Source: Veillonellaceae bacterium (lineage in GTDB: Bacteria; Bacillota; Negativicutes; Veillonellales; Negativicoccaceae). From it: a stretch of 64,000 bases of DNA. The stretch spans positions 62,001-126,000 of the forward strand of contig JALELM010000008.1 of assembly GCA_022771805.1 (NCBI GenBank), read 5' to 3'. The position numbers and the translations under genes are program-made. The notes under the pieces were generated by a model, which was given only the letters and a program-made list of their open reading frames with translations, searched no databases and was not told the origin of the DNA. Below, piece after piece: positions 34,917 to 42,575 of this stretch (position 1 is its first letter; each line of letters begins with the position of its first letter).

Positions 34917-35762
34917 ATGATTCATATCATTACCGATTCGACTGCCGCTCTTCCGGAGGAGTATTTGGCTCGGCATGAGAATATTCAGGTTGTCCCTCTC
35001 TATGTCATGTTGGACGGTGAATACCGTGACGAGCGCGAAGTGTCGCCGCAGGAAGTGGTCGATTTCGTGCTGGTTGCCGACGGACAGCCGAAGACCAGCC
35101 AACCTTCCGTTGCCGCATGGCAGGAAGCGATCGATGCGGTTCCCGAAACGGACGAAATCCTGATTATCACGTTGACATCAGCGGTCAGCGGTACATACCA
35201 ATCGGCCTGTATGGTTGCCAAACAGAATCCCGACCGGAAAATCACGGTGGTGGATTCGGAAACGACCAACGGCGGCCAAGCACAATTGGTATATGAAGCG
35301 GTTGCGGAGCGGGATGCCGGCAAGACATTGGAGGAGATCGTTTCCCGGCTGCGCCGAAGCATCAAGAACGGTCGGACGATGCTCATGCCGTCGAGCTTGG
35401 AATTTTTGCGGCGCGGCGGGCGGATCGGCAGAGCGGCCACGCTGCTCGGATCCATTCTGCAAGTACGGCCGATTTTGTATTTACGAGAGGATAACGAACT
35501 GGATATCCTTACGAAAGTACGAACGACGAAAAAGGCACTGGCGGAAATGAAGAAGGACGCACTCAGCCGGCCGGTGCGCGAGCTGAACGTCGCGGGAATT
35601 TTGACGGACGGCCTTTCGGCGCAGTTCCGCGACGAATTGCAGGAGGCCTTGCCGGATGTTAAGGTCACGCTGACGGAAGGCACGGCGGCCACCGCTACAC
35701 ACTTGGGACCGGGGCTGGTAGCCATTATGGTTCGCTGGCATGAGGAGGAAGAGGATGTATAA
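34917..35762 (+). CDS. DegV-family fatty-acid-binding protein (FakB-like)
   Basis: DegV proteins (FakB) bind a fatty acid and present it to the kinase FakA to make acyl-phosphate for phospholipid synthesis. The 281-residue protein starts IHIITDSTAALP, has VVPLYVMLDGEYRD, the KTSQPS loop, ITLTSAVSGTYQSA and a C-terminal GPGLVAIM motif, all typical of the two-domain fold. A GGAGA ribosome site is seven bases upstream. It overlaps the fakA start by eight bases, so binding protein and kinase are co-expressed, which supports the functional assignment. Confidence 0.92.
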   Translation: MIHIITDSTAALPEEYLARHENIQVVPLYVMLDGEYRDEREVSPQEVVDFVLVADGQPKTSQPSVAAWQEAIDAVPETDEILIITLTSAVSGTYQSACMVAKQNPDRKITVVDSETTNGGQAQLVYEAVAERDAGKTLEEIVSRLRRSIKNGRTMLMPSSLEFLRRGGRIGRAATLLGSILQVRPILYLREDNELDILTKVRTTKKALAEMKKDALSRPVRELNVAGILTDGLSAQFRDELQEALPDVKVTLTEGTAATATHLGPGLVAIMVRWHEEEEDV

Positions 35763-37356
35763 TCAGATCGACGGCAAACAGTATAAAGACATGCTGATCG
35801 GTGCCTATGCGGCATTCAAAGAAAACTATGAACATATCAATCAATTGAACGTGTTTCCCGTACCGGATGGAGATACGGGAACGAATATGCTGAATACATT
35901 GCGTTCGATGTACAGCATGATCGTGAATGAAGAGAATGAATCGATCGGCATCATTGCGGAAAAAGCCGCAACGGGTGCCATCATGGGCGCAAGAGGCAAC
36001 TCCGGGGTCATTCTTTCGCAGATTATCCAAGGGCTTGCCAAAGGCTTGCGCGGTAAAAAGCAGGCCTCCTGCCGGGAGATCGGCAAAGCATTTCAGTACG
36101 GTATACTGTACGCATATCGCGCCGTCGTCAAGCCGGTGGAAGGGACGATCCTCTCTGTGGCGCGCGGTATTGCCAAGGGAACGCGAGATGTAACCAAGCG
36201 GGAACGGGACTTTTCGCAAGTATTGCGGACAGCGATCGAGAGCGGCCAGGAAGCATTGGCAATGACGCCGGAACAGCTGCCCATTCTCAAGGAAGCGAAT
36301 GTGGTCGATGCCGGCGGGCAGGGACTGCTTCTTTTCCTGGAGGGGTGTCTGCAGGGATTGACCGGCGAAACGCATATTGTCGAGGACAAAGTTCCGGAAA
36401 CGGTCAAGAAGCTGGAAGTCAAAGGCGAGTCCTTCTCCATCGATTATCCGTATTGTACGGAATTTATCGTCAGCCCCTGCAAAGTTCGCGGCGCGGAAGC
36501 ACGCAAGGCGCTGGAGTCCTGGGGCGAGTCGATGATTGTCGCCGAAGGCGAGAACCTGCTGAAAGTGCATATTCATGCCCAGCGTCCCGGTCATGTATTG
36601 GATATGGCGGCGGATTGGGGAACGCTGCACGACATCAAGGTCGATAATATGATGGATCAGTTCAAGCGCAATAAGCATATCGCGCATGATCAGGCCAAAC
36701 GGGAGATCGGCGTACTGGCCGTGGTTTCCGGTGAAGGCTGGAAGCGAATCATGGAAGGTATGCATGCACAGGTGCTGGCCGGCGGTCAGACGATGAACCC
36801 GTCGGTGCAGGAAATCATGCAGGCGTTGGACGGTCTCGGCTCGAAGCATTATATTATTTTGCCGAACAATAAGAACATTATTCTGGCAGCAAAACAGGTA
36901 CAAAAAATTCTCGGACCGACACTGCAAGTCATCCCGACGGCGAACCCGGCGGAAGGTGCGGCGGTCGGAATGGTTTATGATCCGCAGGCGGACATCGAAA
37001 CCAATGTGGCAGCCATGCAGGCTCGCTTGCTCGAAATCCGTTCGGCCGGTATTACGCAGGCGGTACGCGACAGCTCGGTGGACGGGATTCGCATCCAAAA
37101 AGACGACTACATGGGTCTTGCGGCAGGCTTCCCCGTTGTCACGGCACGCGCTCTGGACGAGTGTCTCGGCAACGTGCTGGAGAATTTGTTGGACGCAGGT
37201 GAAGCGGAAATCGTCACGCTTTACTTCGGCGCGGATTTGCCGCAAGAAGAGGCGGAAGGGTTGCTTGCCGCTCAGGAAGAACGGTATCCGGAAGTGGAAT
37301 TTGAACTGCAGAACGGCGGTCAGCCGCTGTATCCTTTCTTCATTTCGGTAGAATAA
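35755..37356 (+). CDS. fakA: Fatty acid kinase catalytic subunit FakA (DAK2/YloV family)
   Basis: FakA phosphorylates fatty acids held by FakB (DegV) proteins. The 533-residue protein has an N-terminal DhaL-like ATP domain (about residues 8-200) with the metal-binding VFPVPDGDTGTNM (Asp38, Asp40), the GARGNSGVILSQII loop, and VDAGGQGLLLFLEG. A middle domain and a C-terminal FakB-like domain follow. I start it at ATG 35755, after GAGGAAGAGG; the in-frame 35740 start is inside the ribosome-site region. The partner DegV is immediately upstream. A bidirectional terminator follows. Confidence 0.93.
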   Translation: MYNQIDGKQYKDMLIGAYAAFKENYEHINQLNVFPVPDGDTGTNMLNTLRSMYSMIVNEENESIGIIAEKAATGAIMGARGNSGVILSQIIQGLAKGLRGKKQASCREIGKAFQYGILYAYRAVVKPVEGTILSVARGIAKGTRDVTKRERDFSQVLRTAIESGQEALAMTPEQLPILKEANVVDAGGQGLLLFLEGCLQGLTGETHIVEDKVPETVKKLEVKGESFSIDYPYCTEFIVSPCKVRGAEARKALESWGESMIVAEGENLLKVHIHAQRPGHVLDMAADWGTLHDIKVDNMMDQFKRNKHIAHDQAKREIGVLAVVSGEGWKRIMEGMHAQVLAGGQTMNPSVQEIMQALDGLGSKHYIILPNNKNIILAAKQVQKILGPTLQVIPTANPAEGAAVGMVYDPQADIETNVAAMQARLLEIRSAGITQAVRDSSVDGIRIQKDDYMGLAAGFPVVTARALDECLGNVLENLLDAGEAEIVTLYFGADLPQEEAEGLLAAQEERYPEVEFELQNGGQPLYPFFISVE

Positions 37357-37358
37357 GT

Positions 37359-37391
37359 AAAAGGATGTCGACATAAGTCGACATCCTTTTT
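37359..37391. terminator. Bidirectional terminator between fakA and the speD-like gene
   Basis: AAAAGGATGTCGAC (37359-37372) and GTCGACATCCTTTT (37377-37390) form a perfect 14-bp stem around ATAA with T runs on both sides. It serves both convergent genes. Confidence 0.92.
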
Positions 37392-37872
37392 ATTTGCTTT
37401 GCCTGCCGGGGCGAAGTACCTTCAGTACTTTTCCTCCCGTTGTTTTGATTCTCTTGCCGGTAGTTTTCATGCGCCGCCATTGCGTTGTTTTGGAATTTGT
37501 TTTCGGTTTCATATCGCGGGCGGGTTCGACCTTGCCGCGTTTTACGCTGGTCGCGCGGATTTTATCCGGACGAAAATGTTGCCGGAAAATTTTCATGGTG
37601 GCCGTCGCCTCAATCAGCGTGTCGAAGGTAAAGACATCGACAGCAACGTAGTCGTAGTCCGGATAGGCATGCAGGCAAATATGGCTGTTCATCCCGATTG
37701 CCGTCATGGAGTAACCTTCCGGATGCGCATGGACATGCGTGTCATAGTTATCGGAAAGAAGCTCGGCCATCGCTTCGGAAACCGCCGCCTGCAACGATGC
37801 CGGCGAATCGATTCGCGCCGCGCGGCAACCGTAGCAGTCGATCAATATATGTTTGCCGATGGATTGGGTCAT
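37390..37872 (-). CDS. SpeD-like pyruvoyl-dependent decarboxylase, variant active site
   Basis: A 160-residue homologue of bacterial S-adenosylmethionine decarboxylase, the enzyme that supplies aminopropyl groups for spermidine. Numbering matches the Thermotoga enzyme: Ser63, which would form the pyruvoyl group, and His68 in NSHICLHAYP are kept. However, residue 62 is Asn rather than Glu, and the residue at the proton-donor Cys83 is Phe (VDVFTF instead of VFTC). A ~50-residue Lys/Arg-rich tail follows. No spermidine synthase gene is adjacent. Substitutions like these have been reported in SpeD homologues that decarboxylate ornithine or arginine; the substrate here is unknown. AAGGCGGTG lies upstream of the ATG. 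Confidence 0.8.
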   Translation of the reverse strand: MTQSIGKHILIDCYGCRAARIDSPASLQAAVSEAMAELLSDNYDTHVHAHPEGYSMTAIGMNSHICLHAYPDYDYVAVDVFTFDTLIEATATMKIFRQHFRPDKIRATSVKRGKVEPARDMKPKTNSKTTQWRRMKTTGKRIKTTGGKVLKVLRPGRQSK

Positions 37873-38121: not shown

Positions 38122-38556
38122 ATGAGCCGAGTACTGGCGGATCGAATTGAAAAGTATATTTTGCGGCAGCTTTTGGAGAATGCCGGACCGGAAGTCATTT
38201 TACAGCGAAAGGATATTGCGGAGGCGCTGAATTGTGCGCCGTCACAGATCAGCTATGTGCTGAGCACCCGTTTTTCGAACGAGCGCGGCTATTCCGTGGA
38301 ATCCAGGCGGGGGATCGGCGGTTTCATTCGGATTACGGTGACGGAACGGCCGGTGCCGATCGAGGAGACGGAATGGACTCTGGGCGAGTTGGATCGGCAA
38401 TTGTATGAATATCTGCAAGCGAAACTCATTACACAGCGTGAGGCGAAGCTGATGCACGAGGTGTATGCGGCAGTCTTCCGGACGACGGAAGGCGCCCGTC
38501 GGAGCCGCTTGCTGGCTGAACTGCAGGAACGTCTGCAGGCATGGACGGAGGAATAA
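38122..38556 (+). CDS. ctsR: Class III stress-gene repressor CtsR
   Basis: CtsR represses clp and other protein-quality genes; heat and McsB activity remove it. The 144-residue protein has the N-terminal winged helix (about residues 5-75: ILQRKDIAEALNCAPSQISYVLSTRF, then the glycine wing GIGGFIRI, which senses heat) and the C-terminal dimer/McsB-interaction helices. GAGGTGAGG is upstream of the ATG. As in other Firmicutes, it is first in ctsR-mcsA-mcsB-clpC and probably represses its own promoter. Confidence 0.96.
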   Translation: MSRVLADRIEKYILRQLLENAGPEVILQRKDIAEALNCAPSQISYVLSTRFSNERGYSVESRRGIGGFIRITVTERPVPIEETEWTLGELDRQLYEYLQAKLITQREAKLMHEVYAAVFRTTEGARRSRLLAELQERLQAWTEE

Positions 38557-38557
38557 T

Positions 38558-39058
38558 ATGCGGTGTGAACAATGCGGCGAACGGGAAGCGAATATGCATT
38601 TCACCGTAGTGCAAAACGGCAAGAAAACGGAACGGCATTTGTGTTCCGCCTGCGCGGCCAAGCAGGAAGGCGGCGCGGGAACCTTTGATTTGTGGGACAA
38701 TGATTTTTTCAAAAGTCTGGTCAATCCGTACCTGTACCGGGAAACGGAAGTGCCGCATTGCGAGACTTGCGGGCTGACTTTGGACGAGTTTAACGAAAAC
38801 GGGCGCTTCGGCTGCCCGCAGTGCTATACATCGTTTCGGGAGCAGATCATGCAGATGCTGCCTCGCCTGCAGGGACGCACACGGCATGTCGGCAAAGTGC
38901 CTTTGCGCGGCACGGGTGTATTTACGACGGAACGACAATTACAACGTTTGCAACAGATGCTGGCGGATGCCCTGCAAAAAGAAGAATACGAGCGGGCAGC
39001 CGAATTGCGGGATGAAATTCACAGCTTGCAGCGTACGGACGATACGGGAGGGATATGA
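38558..39058 (+). CDS. mcsA: McsA, zinc-binding activator of the arginine kinase McsB
   Basis: McsA binds metals and stimulates McsB. The 166-residue protein has four CxxC motifs (CEQCGE, CSAC, CETCGL, CPQC) arranged as two zinc sites in the first ~90 residues and a C-terminal UVR motif (ADALQKEEYERAAELRDEI) that mediates contacts with McsB or ClpC. The start at ATG 38558 follows GGAGGA; an in-frame extension to 38465 lies inside ctsR and was rejected. It overlaps mcsB by four bases. Confidence 0.95.
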   Translation: MRCEQCGEREANMHFTVVQNGKKTERHLCSACAAKQEGGAGTFDLWDNDFFKSLVNPYLYRETEVPHCETCGLTLDEFNENGRFGCPQCYTSFREQIMQMLPRLQGRTRHVGKVPLRGTGVFTTERQLQRLQQMLADALQKEEYERAAELRDEIHSLQRTDDTGGI

Positions 39059-40125
39059 TGCAAATCCGAGAAATTTTGGATCGGCCGGTACAAGACTGGT
39101 TTTCCGGTGAGCAGCCGGAAGGGGATGTGGTGCTGTCCGGACGAGTTCGCCTGGCGCGCAATTTGGCGGGTGTGCGCTTCCCCGGCTATGCGTCGCCGGA
39201 AGAGCGGGCGCAGGTCGAACAACAAACCCGGCGCGTACTGAGCAATTTGGCGAAAGAAGAAAACACGGAAACGGCGTATATCCGCATGGAAGAGCTGACG
39301 GATGCCGATCGTCAGGTGCTCGTCGAAAAGCACCTGATCAGCCCGCAGCTGGTCGCCGATACGCAGGGGAGCGGGATCGTGGTCGACAAAGATGCCGGCC
39401 TGACGATCATGGTCAACGAAGAGGATCATTACCGGATCCAGTGCCTGGGCGGCGGTTTGCAATTACCCCGACTCTGGCAGCGCGCCTCGCATATCGACGA
39501 TTTATTGGAAGCGCAATTGGATTTTGCGTATGACAACAGTCTCGGTTATCTGACCGCCTGCCCGACGAATGTGGGCACCGGCCTGCGCGCTTCGGTCATG
39601 GTTCACGTACCGGCACTGGTGCGTACACGCAAAATTCAGCGGCTGATTCAAAGCATGTTGAAGGTGGATTTTTCCGTTCGCGGCTTGTACGGCGAAGGTA
39701 CGGATATGGCCGGGAATATTTTGCAAATATCGAATCAAGTGACATTGGGCGTGCGGGAGGAAGATGTCGTCGCTCGTTTGCAGTCGCTCGGCGAGCAGCT
39801 GGCAAAAGAAGAACGGGCGGCCAGGGAGCAGCTGAAAGGGATCCCGGCGCTGACGGACGAAGTCTGGCGGGCTTACGGCGTCTTGCGCTATGCCCGCGCG
39901 CTCAGCGGCGATGAAGCATTGACTTTGCTCAGCACGGTGGAACTGGGGCGTATCCTGGGAATTATTCCGCACATTTCTGCCGATGCGTTTCGGGAAATGC
40001 TGGTCACGACACGACCCGGCTTTTTACAACGCTATGCCCACAGTGAAGAACAGGATGTACAAACGCGTGATACCCTGCGTGCGGCAGTGGTTCGCGACTC
40101 ATTACAGAAAATGGAAAAGGAGTGA
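39055..40125 (+). CDS. mcsB: Protein-arginine kinase McsB
   Basis: McsB phosphorylates arginine residues on proteins, marking them for ClpCP and inactivating CtsR. The 356-residue protein has the phosphagen-kinase fold: VVLSGRVRLARNLAGVRFPGYAS in the phosphate-binding region, VNEEDHYRIQ with the acidic base residues, and CPTNVGTGLRASVMVHVP in the ATP site. The C-terminal helical part contains the pArg-binding region. Start overlaps mcsA (ATG followed directly by a second ATG at 39058; either is possible). Confidence 0.96.
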   Translation: MMQIREILDRPVQDWFSGEQPEGDVVLSGRVRLARNLAGVRFPGYASPEERAQVEQQTRRVLSNLAKEENTETAYIRMEELTDADRQVLVEKHLISPQLVADTQGSGIVVDKDAGLTIMVNEEDHYRIQCLGGGLQLPRLWQRASHIDDLLEAQLDFAYDNSLGYLTACPTNVGTGLRASVMVHVPALVRTRKIQRLIQSMLKVDFSVRGLYGEGTDMAGNILQISNQVTLGVREEDVVARLQSLGEQLAKEERAAREQLKGIPALTDEVWRAYGVLRYARALSGDEALTLLSTVELGRILGIIPHISADAFREMLVTTRPGFLQRYAHSEEQDVQTRDTLRAAVVRDSLQKMEKE

Positions 40126-40130
40126 ATACT

Positions 40131-42575
40131 ATGGATAATAAATTTACGCAAAGTGCACGGAAGGCCTTGGCCTATGCACAGAATCTGGCGCAACGCGGCA
40201 ACTCGGAAGTCGTCGGGACGGAACATCTGCTGGCGGGGATTGCCTCGGAAGAGAAAAGTCTCGGCGGGAAGGTGCTGCACGAAATCGGCATGACGGCGCA
40301 GGCAATCGAAGCGCGGCTGGGAATTGACGAAACGAGCCCGGTTGCCGAACGGATCGTGCCGATGAGCCCGCGAACCAAGCGTGTCATTCAGTTGGCCGTG
40401 ATGGAGGCAAATCGTCTCGGTCATACCTATGTCGGCACGGAGCATTTCCTGCTCGGTATTTTGCGTGACGGCGGCGGTGTCGGTTTACGACTGCTGTTGG
40501 AAGGCGGCGTAACGAAGGAAAAACTGGCGCAGGCTTTCAATAAGTATCTGAACGGCGAACCGAGCGAAGAGAGCTCGGCCGGCGGTGAAAGTGCGCTCGG
40601 CGAATTGGGGGACTATGCCCGCAATTTGAATGAATTGGCGGAGCAGGGCAAGATTGACCCCGTGATCGGTCGGGAAGAAGAAGTCGATCGCGTCATCCAG
40701 ATCCTGAGCCGGCGCACGAAGAACAACCCGGTGTTGATCGGTGAACCGGGGGTCGGTAAAACAGCCATTGCGGAAGGCCTCGCCCAGCGGATTGTCGCGG
40801 GGAATGTGCCGGAAATTCTGCGCGGCCGGAAGATCATTTCGCTGAATCTGTCTTCCGCCGTAGCCGGGACGAAGTATCGCGGGGAATTTGAGGAACGACT
40901 GAAAAAAATTATCGATGAAGTTCGCAATCATGAGGATTGGATCTTGTTCATTGACGAGCTGCATATGCTGATCGGTGCCGGTGCAACGGAAGGCGGAATG
41001 GATGCGGCGAATATTTTGAAACCGGCGTTGGCTCGCGGTGAACTGCAATGTATCGGAGCGACGACGCTGGATGAGTACAAGAAACACATCGAAAAAGACG
41101 CCGCACTGGAACGGCGCTTCCAGCCGGTCATGGTGGACGAACCGACACCCGAAGATGCGGAGCGTATTCTCTTCGGACTGCGCGACCGGTACGAAGCGTT
41201 CCACAAGGCGAAGATCACGGATGAAGCGCTGAAAGCGGCGGTACGTTTGTCGGCGCGCTACATTGCGGATCGCTTCCTGCCGGACAAGGCGATCGACGTC
41301 ATGGACGAAGCGGCGGCCAAAGTACGCATCGCCGCGGCGGCCACCCCGCCGGATTTGAAGGATCTGGAAATGAAGCTGGCGCGCATTCTGAAAGAAAAGG
41401 AAGCGGCGGTTACGGCGCAGGAATACGAACGTGCGGCCACGCTTCGCGACGAAGAGCGGCAGGCGCAGGAAGAATTGGAAAAACTGCAAAGTTCTTGGGA
41501 TAAAGGAGATGTAGATAATCTTGTCGTGGACAAGGCGGATATCGAGGAAGTGGTGGCGCGTTGGACGGGCGTTCCGCTGAAACAGATGCAGGAAGACGAA
41601 GCCGTGCACTTGCTCCATCTGGAAGAAGAATTGCACAAGCGGGTCGTCGGTCAGGATGATGCGGTCACCGCCGTGGCGAAAGCGATTCGCCGTTCGCGGG
41701 CGGGGCTGCAGGATCCGAAACGCCCGATCGGCTCCTTCCTGTTCCTCGGACCGACCGGCGTCGGCAAGACGGAATTGGCTCGCACCTTGGCGGAAACGAT
41801 GTTCGGCGATGAAGATGCGCTGATCCGTCTGGATATGTCCGAGTACATGGAAAAGCACACGGTCTCCCGTCTGGTCGGGGCGCCTCCCGGCTATGTCGGT
41901 TACGATGACGGCGGCCAGCTGACGGATGCCGTCCGCCGCCGTCCGTACAGTGTCATTCTGCTGGACGAAGTGGAAAAGGCGCATGCCGATTTCTTCAATA
42001 TGCTCTTGCAGGTATTGGATGACGGTCGCCTGACTGACAGCCAGGGACGTACGGTCGATTTCCGCAATACCGTCATCATCATGACGAGTAACCTCGGCTC
42101 GGGGAATTTGCAGGCGGACAGCGCGGAGATGGGGTTCCTCTCCGGTAATCGCGATGCGGCAAGCGAACAGCAGGCGGAGGAAGCGGCGAAAAAAGCCGTA
42201 ATGGATGCGGTGAAACGTTTCTTCCGACCGGAATTCATCAACCGAATTGATGAAATGATCGTGTTCCACCCGCTGCGGAAGGAAGATCTGAAACAAATCG
42301 TCGATATCATGCTGGGGCAGGTCAACCGTCGTCTGGCGGACAGCGATATGCATCTCGAGGTAGCGGCCGCAGCCAAGGATCTGCTGATCGAGAAAGGCAG
42401 CGACACGGAGTACGGGGCGCGGCCTCTGAAACGGGCGATCCGGCAGCTGCTGGAAGATCCGCTGGCCGAAGAAGTCATTGCCGGCAGGATTGCGAAAGGA
42501 AGCACGGTGGCCGTCACCGTGGAAGACGGCAAGCTGGTATTCCGTCCGGAAACGGAGAAAACGGCGGAAAAATAA
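40131..42575 (+). CDS. clpC: ClpC-type AAA+ chaperone
   Basis: ClpC unfolds substrates for ClpP, including arginine-phosphorylated proteins marked by McsB. The 814-residue protein has two N-terminal Clp repeats (about 5-150), AAA1 with GEPGVGKT near residue 204, a UVR-containing middle domain ([18 protein letters not shown]), and AAA2 with GPTGVGKT near residue 540. A C-terminal D2-small domain follows. I start it at ATG 40131 because AAGGAG (40116-40121) is nine bases away; a GTG at 40122 overlapping the mcsB stop is less suitable. A strong terminator ends the operon. Confidence 0.97.

Follow-up and report, generated by a model that had tools for sequence, protein, structure and literature searches.

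The closest described systems are the class 1b AdoMet decarboxylases (SpeD), such as TM0655 of Thermotoga maritima (1tlu, 1vr7 and 1tmi). Known SpeDs dimerise. A SpeD-like fold also forms the N-terminal part of human spermine synthase (3c6k), where it is non-catalytic and sits in a larger aminopropyltransferase. Residues S63, H68 and C83 are required for self-processing, and are marked in SpeD and in the groups that decarboxylate arginine or ornithine (Li et al. 2023, PMC10407285). These SpeD-derived decarboxylases (SpeDA and SpeDC) occur, in the account of Li et al., in genomes lacking canonical SpeA or SpeC, and the authors searched for them partly by the presence of two SpeD homologues in a single genome. 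SpeDC is marked by diagnostic Gln, Thr, Phe and Tyr residues. It also describes a fusion from Victivallis vadensis whose C-terminal SpeD domain lacks the critical active-site residues and cannot self-cleave; its main text mentions neither Veillonella, nor Negativicutes, nor Selenomonas. Another dead AdoMet decarboxylase paralogue is the prozyme of trypanosomes (PMC5201418). Finally, Negativicutes carry polyamines on the D-glutamate of their peptidoglycan, which are recognised by OmpM (PMC10628300).

We analysed a window of 64,000 nucleotides (the whole stretch of DNA under study, from a Veillonellaceae bacterium), which encodes a SpeD-fold protein with a basic C-terminal tail. What is new here is a stand-alone, class-wide family of enzymes, dead or dying, that has conserved its tail; we found no description of this tailed family in the open-licence literature. 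The features of the locus are the following.

37390–37872, minus strand: tailed SpeD-fold protein of 160 amino acids, with its ATG at 37872 and the stop codon within the span.
37534–37872, minus strand: SpeD-fold core, residues 1–113 (Pfam AdoMet_dc, AlphaFold2 and VIA-align).
37393–37533, minus strand: basic C-terminal tail, residues 114–160, class-specific, with a DMKP motif and a helix predicted at 128–153 with low confidence.
37687–37689, minus strand: Asn62 codon (Glu62 in T. maritima), by alignment.
37684–37686, minus strand: Ser63 codon, the processing serine position, present in the window protein.
37669–37671, minus strand: His68 codon, present, by alignment.
37624–37626, minus strand: Phe83 codon (catalytic Cys83 in T. 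maritima), by alignment.
37359–37390, no strand assigned: putative terminator-like symmetric hairpin between the tailed gene and a convergent FakA-like gene, from a consensus scan only.
38122–38556, plus strand: ctsR, first gene of a ctsR-mcsA-mcsB-clpC operon (Pfam CtsR; synteny).
38465–42575, plus strand: mcsA, mcsB (PF00217) and clpC (Clp_N, AAA_2), from Pfam, with mcsA named by position.

The window protein shares with class 1b SpeD the fold, Ser63, His64, His68 and the Pfam AdoMet_dc domain (PF02675), which matches residues 8–113 with 88.4 bits for a curated cut-off of 25; this score and the SpeD fold place it in the superfamily. It differs from class 1b SpeD by Phe83, by Asn62, by the class-specific basic tail and by its score against the NCBIfam AdoMet decarboxylase equivalog (TIGR03330), which at 72.8 bits is narrowly below the cut-off of 75.65. 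It also differs in that the tailed protein is kept without spermidine genes in other members of the class. The equivalog cut-off is a weak test: of 10 tailed proteins whose active site is not intact, five (L091, L094, L101, L106 and L116) also pass it, and an intact relative (L102) lies well above it at 144 bits. In the alignment with T. maritima SpeD, window residues 62, 63, 64, 68 and 83 are N, S, H, H and F. Hence, two of the three residues shared by class 1b AdoMet decarboxylases, Ser63 and His68, are there and Cys83 is not, and the same Phe83 breaks the S63, H68 and C83 set of SpeDA and SpeDC. The original prediction, made from the letters of the window, had described a SpeD homologue with Phe at position 83, Asn at position 62, Ser63 and His68 kept and a basic tail of about 50 residues. 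The alignment agrees on every residue and puts no Cys at the active site, and the tail, at residues 114–160, has a net charge of +14 (counted after the equivalent of T. maritima position 116).

We predicted the structure with AlphaFold2 from 20 aligned proteins of the window and other Veillonellales. The block pLDDT is 88–97 for residues 11–110 and 51–58 for the tail, where the helix at 128–153 is drawn. The best Foldseek match in the PDB is the non-processing S63A mutant of the T. maritima enzyme, followed by further SpeD entries of T. maritima and A. aeolicus. VIA-align superposes the window protein on T. maritima SpeD with a Z of 18.5 and an rmsd of 1.9 over 115–116 residues at 20% identity. 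Its rows also include the N-terminal part of human spermine synthase (Z 11.1, 97 residues), and trypanosome AdoMetDC/prozyme chains are present among the fold matches. The predicted model thus shows a core with the SpeD fold.

The tailed gene is divergent from ctsR-mcsA-mcsB-clpC in the window. We found a gene of the ctsR operon in the fetched stretch in 20 of the 26 loci L088–L113, and in 14 of the 26 loci from Veillonellales, the window among them. Such a gene was near the tailed gene in none of the 11 loci of the groups coded f14 and f18. The neighbours often found between or beside them in L088–L113 are a nitronate monooxygenase, a flavodiiron-type protein, a PUA-domain methyltransferase and a rubrerythrin. 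The common ctsR-operon locus supports the orthology of intact copies and the window copy, and the synteny supports a family that would have been inherited vertically. We recognised no polyamine gene, speD or speE, and no envelope genes, in the shared neighbourhood of the tailed gene. Control by CtsR was considered and set aside: a scan for a CtsR-type box, allowing up to three mismatches, gave no site between 37800 and 38300. The open reading frame at the mcsA position (38465–39058) has no Pfam match at E 1e-10 and was named by its position and by the impression given by its sequence. On the other side, at 34917–37356, the FakA-like protein directly follows an open reading frame that resembles, by eye, a DegV/FakB-type fatty-acid-binding protein, and the two may be a fatty acid kinase pair.

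We then delimited the family. Orthologues of the window protein were found in 58 of 60 relatives, and an 18-row profile retrieved the tailed protein in 236 of 250 genomes of the class, including 193 of the 196 better-quality ones. The named relatives with the protein are Negativicoccus, Megasphaera, Dialister, Anaeroglobus, Allisonella, Colibacter and Veillonellaceae; the closest is Negativicoccus massiliensis (64% identity). By these names, the class is very probably Negativicutes. We computed dN/dS by the Nei–Gojobori method for eight close orthologue pairs, seven of them from Veillonellales, and set distant pairs aside for saturated or biased dS. The values are 0.027 (L034–L005), 0.027 (L036–L037), 0.099 (L036–L038), 0.155 (L037–L038), 0.069 (L042–L044), 0.041 (L046–L049, with Ala63), 0.019 (L053–L055) and 0.051 (L090–L088, with Gly63), i.e. 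0.02–0.07 in six of the eight pairs, which have Phe83 or Gly63. They are low in core and tail alike. Both parts are under purifying selection, and these low values rule out a pseudogene. Given the orthologues in 58 of 60 relatives and the low dN/dS, the window open reading frame is not a chance one. Mobile elements do not account for the family. Two phage records match, at 27–30% identity over 70% of the query; one of them, a small unannotated record from human faeces (MT839461.1, 1132–1470), has a SpeD-like stretch 29.9% identical to the window core. The 35 plasmid records are all below 60% identity to L102, and three have one place covering at least 80% of this query.

The active site has not been kept with the same constancy. 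We compared 98 tailed sequences (100 minus two identical rows), picked for diversity and not at random among the 236 genomes with the protein, with 19 canonical SpeD rows. The canonical rows all have E62, S63, H64, H68, E72 and C83. Only 23 of the 98 tailed sequences keep Ser63, His68 and Cys83 together, and 75 miss at least one of them: Ser63 is missing in 60, any of Ser, Cys or Thr at position 63 in 50, and Cys83 in 40. The 24 Veillonellales rows all have Phe83, and their residue 63 is Ser (7), Ala (7), Thr (4), Cys (4), Val (1) or Phe (1). In f14 (11 rows) and f18 (15 rows), Gly63 is present in every sampled row, mostly with Cys83. Neither Ala nor Gly at position 63 can yield a pyruvoyl group. 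Since the processing serine was lost several times while strong selection continued, selection in those lineages must be maintaining something other than the pyruvoyl group.

To count the losses, we used a tree built without columns 62, 63 and 83. It is unrooted, and the tool warned of long branches. The placement in a SpeD phylogeny, which the original prediction had suggested as a check, separates the tailed rows from the canonical ones: a starred branch (99/99) sets all of the latter apart, which allows the tailed rows to be a single clade. Under parsimony, the fewest changes are 10 for position 63, 11 for position 83 and 10 for the label intact or broken; the latter ranges from 8 to 11 over bootstraps, and the well-supported (starred) branches force at least 4. 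That the active site was lost several times is thus beyond doubt, the exact number being uncertain because of the long branches and because the root was not inferred. The window protein, with its order-wide Phe83, has probably lost decarboxylase chemistry, and most likely the tailed protein does another, non-decarboxylase job.

Some residues around the former active site are nevertheless retained, as expected of a ligand sensor whose pocket would bind AdoMet, decarboxylated AdoMet or a polyamine without turnover and relay this to the tail. His64 is present in 97 and His68 in 94 of the 98 tailed sequences, despite the loss of Ser63 in 60 of them, and Asp79, Tyr70 and Pro71 are near invariant. 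The retention of both histidines without Ser63 hints at a pocket that may have been kept, and the match to the N-terminal part of human spermine synthase fits a role of this kind. However, conserved residues may be structural, and the broken group varies at position 55 and at position 72, the latter a Glu in all canonical rows. We regard sensing as rather unlikely, yet it survives better than the other alternatives.

The remaining alternatives depend on the polyamine genes of these genomes. The window genome encodes a class-1a SpeD (412 bits to TIGR03331), one Orn/Arg decarboxylase-type match and three PLP decarboxylase matches of the OKR type (OKR_DC_1) over the cut-off. Its sole TIGR00417 match, SpeE, is on contig C19, while the window is on C13. 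The original prediction was right that no spermidine synthase gene is nearby, and the search it proposed for polyamine genes elsewhere in the genome was fruitful. Because the genome has speE and a class-1a speD elsewhere, the absence of speE near the tailed gene is not diagnostic. Across the class, SpeE was matched in 201 of 250 genomes and missing in 49. Among the 20 of these 49 that were listed, 19 keep the tailed gene and 17 have the tailed protein as only PF02675 match (15 of the 17 are at least 90% complete). As the tailed gene is kept in listed genomes without SpeE or another SpeD, the family is independent of spermidine synthesis.

Two SpeD matches occur in many genomes of the class, and some genomes with SpeE (e.g. 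G069, G115, G124 and G131) have the tailed protein as their only one. One could suspect that the tailed protein is active in the latter. The class-2 AdoMet decarboxylase (PF01536) was found in none of 10 SpeE-only genomes, in a search whose PF01536 control itself matched nowhere. Two loci from genomes without class-1a SpeD have other polyamine genes. In L204 (G069:C15:29000–40000), speE lies between an OKR-type decarboxylase gene and genes for a carboxynorspermidine-synthase-like protein (below cut-off), NspC and agmatine deiminase; in L206 (G014:C2:435000–445000), it is clustered with an OKR-type decarboxylase gene, a carboxynorspermidine-synthase-like gene and the NspC gene. From its gene content, G069 may make spermidine by the carboxy route. 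Upstream of a class-1a speD, L002:43–1338 looks by eye like an RNase PH fused to an RdgB-type nucleotide diphosphatase.

A dead paralogue could also act as an activator of the cell's own canonical SpeD, in the manner of the trypanosome prozyme. The class-1a SpeD of the window genome, the two SpeD matches of many class genomes and the trypanosome chains among the fold matches are consistent with this, and the status of dead AdoMet decarboxylase paralogue is common to both. Yet the tailed protein is not bound to an active partner in the class: co-occurrence with an active SpeD fails in the 17 of 20 listed speE-less genomes where it is the only SpeD match. In addition, 23 of the 98 sequences are intact, no speD or speE was recognised beside the gene, and the tailed protein, unlike the prozyme, is a single domain of class-1b size with a basic tail. 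It likewise resembles the C-terminal SpeD domain of V. vadensis in lacking critical active-site residues, but that domain is fused to an active SpeD and the tailed protein is stand-alone. A prozyme-like partner is therefore improbable in our view. We give just as little credit to a residual AdoMet decarboxylase that would be processed slowly at Ser63 and, lacking Cys83, would be only weakly active. Ser63 and His68 are present, the window protein might still self-process, and the intact L102 scores high on the equivalog; but equally selected relatives have Ala or Gly at position 63, and the genome already has a class-1a SpeD.

The original prediction proposed a different pyruvoyl-dependent decarboxylase, or an inactive protein. 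Its second half fares well, given the Phe83 of all Veillonellales rows and a residue 63 that drifts. A neofunctionalised decarboxylase of the SpeDA or SpeDC type, on the contrary, is very doubtful, and we rejected it as main reading. It would fit a protein that keeps Ser63 and His68 and stands in one genome with a second, canonical SpeD, which is one of the signs used by Li et al. (PMC10407285). However, C83 is required for processing according to that paper, and all 24 Veillonellales rows have Phe83. Ser63 is not conserved in the order either, where 17 of the 24 rows have Ala, Cys, Thr, Val or Phe. The canonical polyamine pathway is present in the genome, no polyamine cluster or gene was recognised at the locus, and SpeDA and SpeDC are described from genomes without canonical arginine or ornithine decarboxylases, whereas the window genome has its three OKR_DC_1 matches, which may be such enzymes. 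Lastly, the tailed family is class-wide and appears vertical, while SpeDA and SpeDC, as described, are scattered.

We therefore turn to the tail. Its net charge in the 98 tailed sequences is +6 to +21 (median +10), for a core median of -2. Arg112 and Pro123 are present in all 98 and the DxKP pattern in 95; the window protein carries these marks, basic tail included. When the tail alone was used as the query, all 15 genomes searched had a single match each. Compared with their own shuffles, 53% of the 98 tails show an amphipathic helix tendency at p < 0.05, and the window tail has p 0.09. Pfam gave nothing for the tail under E 0.07. A known domain was not found in the PDB profiles either: 9szu_A (PLZ2.3) matched 18 residues at E 0.0014, none of its stretches passing alone, and another match had E 1.3. 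We also drew 299 genomes across the phylum, 196 of which had a SpeD match (10 of them listed as members of the class or order), and the matches listed are an incomplete set. Outside the class, those listed end at about position 114–127 of 153, except for three rows that reach 129 or 141 solely across an in-frame stop. Among the matches listed, the tail thus belongs to the class, and it is a class-wide conserved feature, not an incidental addition.

Such a tail might serve the envelope, with an amphipathic basic helix bound to the membrane and a protein working for the polyamine-modified peptidoglycan typical of the class and recognised by OmpM (PMC10628300); its class restriction and helix tendency agree with this, but inspection by eye shows neither a signal peptide nor a membrane segment, and no envelope genes were recognised in the shared neighbourhood, so that this role is very unlikely.

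A strongly basic tail, a slightly acidic core and amphipathic tendency in about half of the tails favour a polyanion-binding scaffold. Our leading reading, held tentatively and just short of even confidence, is that the window protein is a non-decarboxylating scaffold of SpeD fold whose function resides in its class-specific basic tail and is most likely the binding of a polyanion (RNA or DNA). After polyanion binding, the next candidates are ligand sensing and membrane binding; the helix tendency of the tails would also fit the latter. In the proposed course of events, the ancestor would be a SpeD homologue with an intact active site that was probably self-processing. Pyruvoyl chemistry would then have been abandoned in many lineages, very probably including that of the window protein. 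What survived would be a scaffold without decarboxylation, whose conserved job lies on fold and tail: the compact, slightly acidic core would present basic tails to RNA, ribosomes or DNA, two of them if the protein dimerises like known SpeDs. For the order of events, we think it slightly more likely than not that one bacterial class made an AdoMet decarboxylase into a core protein without enzymatic function: the tail came first, on an active enzyme, and became the selected function, and the pyruvoyl machinery then decayed on four or more occasions, perhaps ten, in a protein that is strongly selected even without spermidine genes.

If this is true, one orthologous family holds a class-wide series of transitions from enzyme to non-enzyme, in which intact orthologues coexist with broken ones. 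These make it possible to test directly whether the tail preceded the loss of chemistry. Passing the SpeD equivalog model may not mean being a decarboxylase for many proteins of the class, as five of 10 broken-site proteins pass it, and their automatic annotation as decarboxylases would mislead the reconstruction of polyamine pathways. We found no mutant-library paper on essentiality in Veillonella by title in the open-licence literature. A protein that is near-universal in the class lends itself well to genetic study, for instance in laboratory strains of Veillonella.
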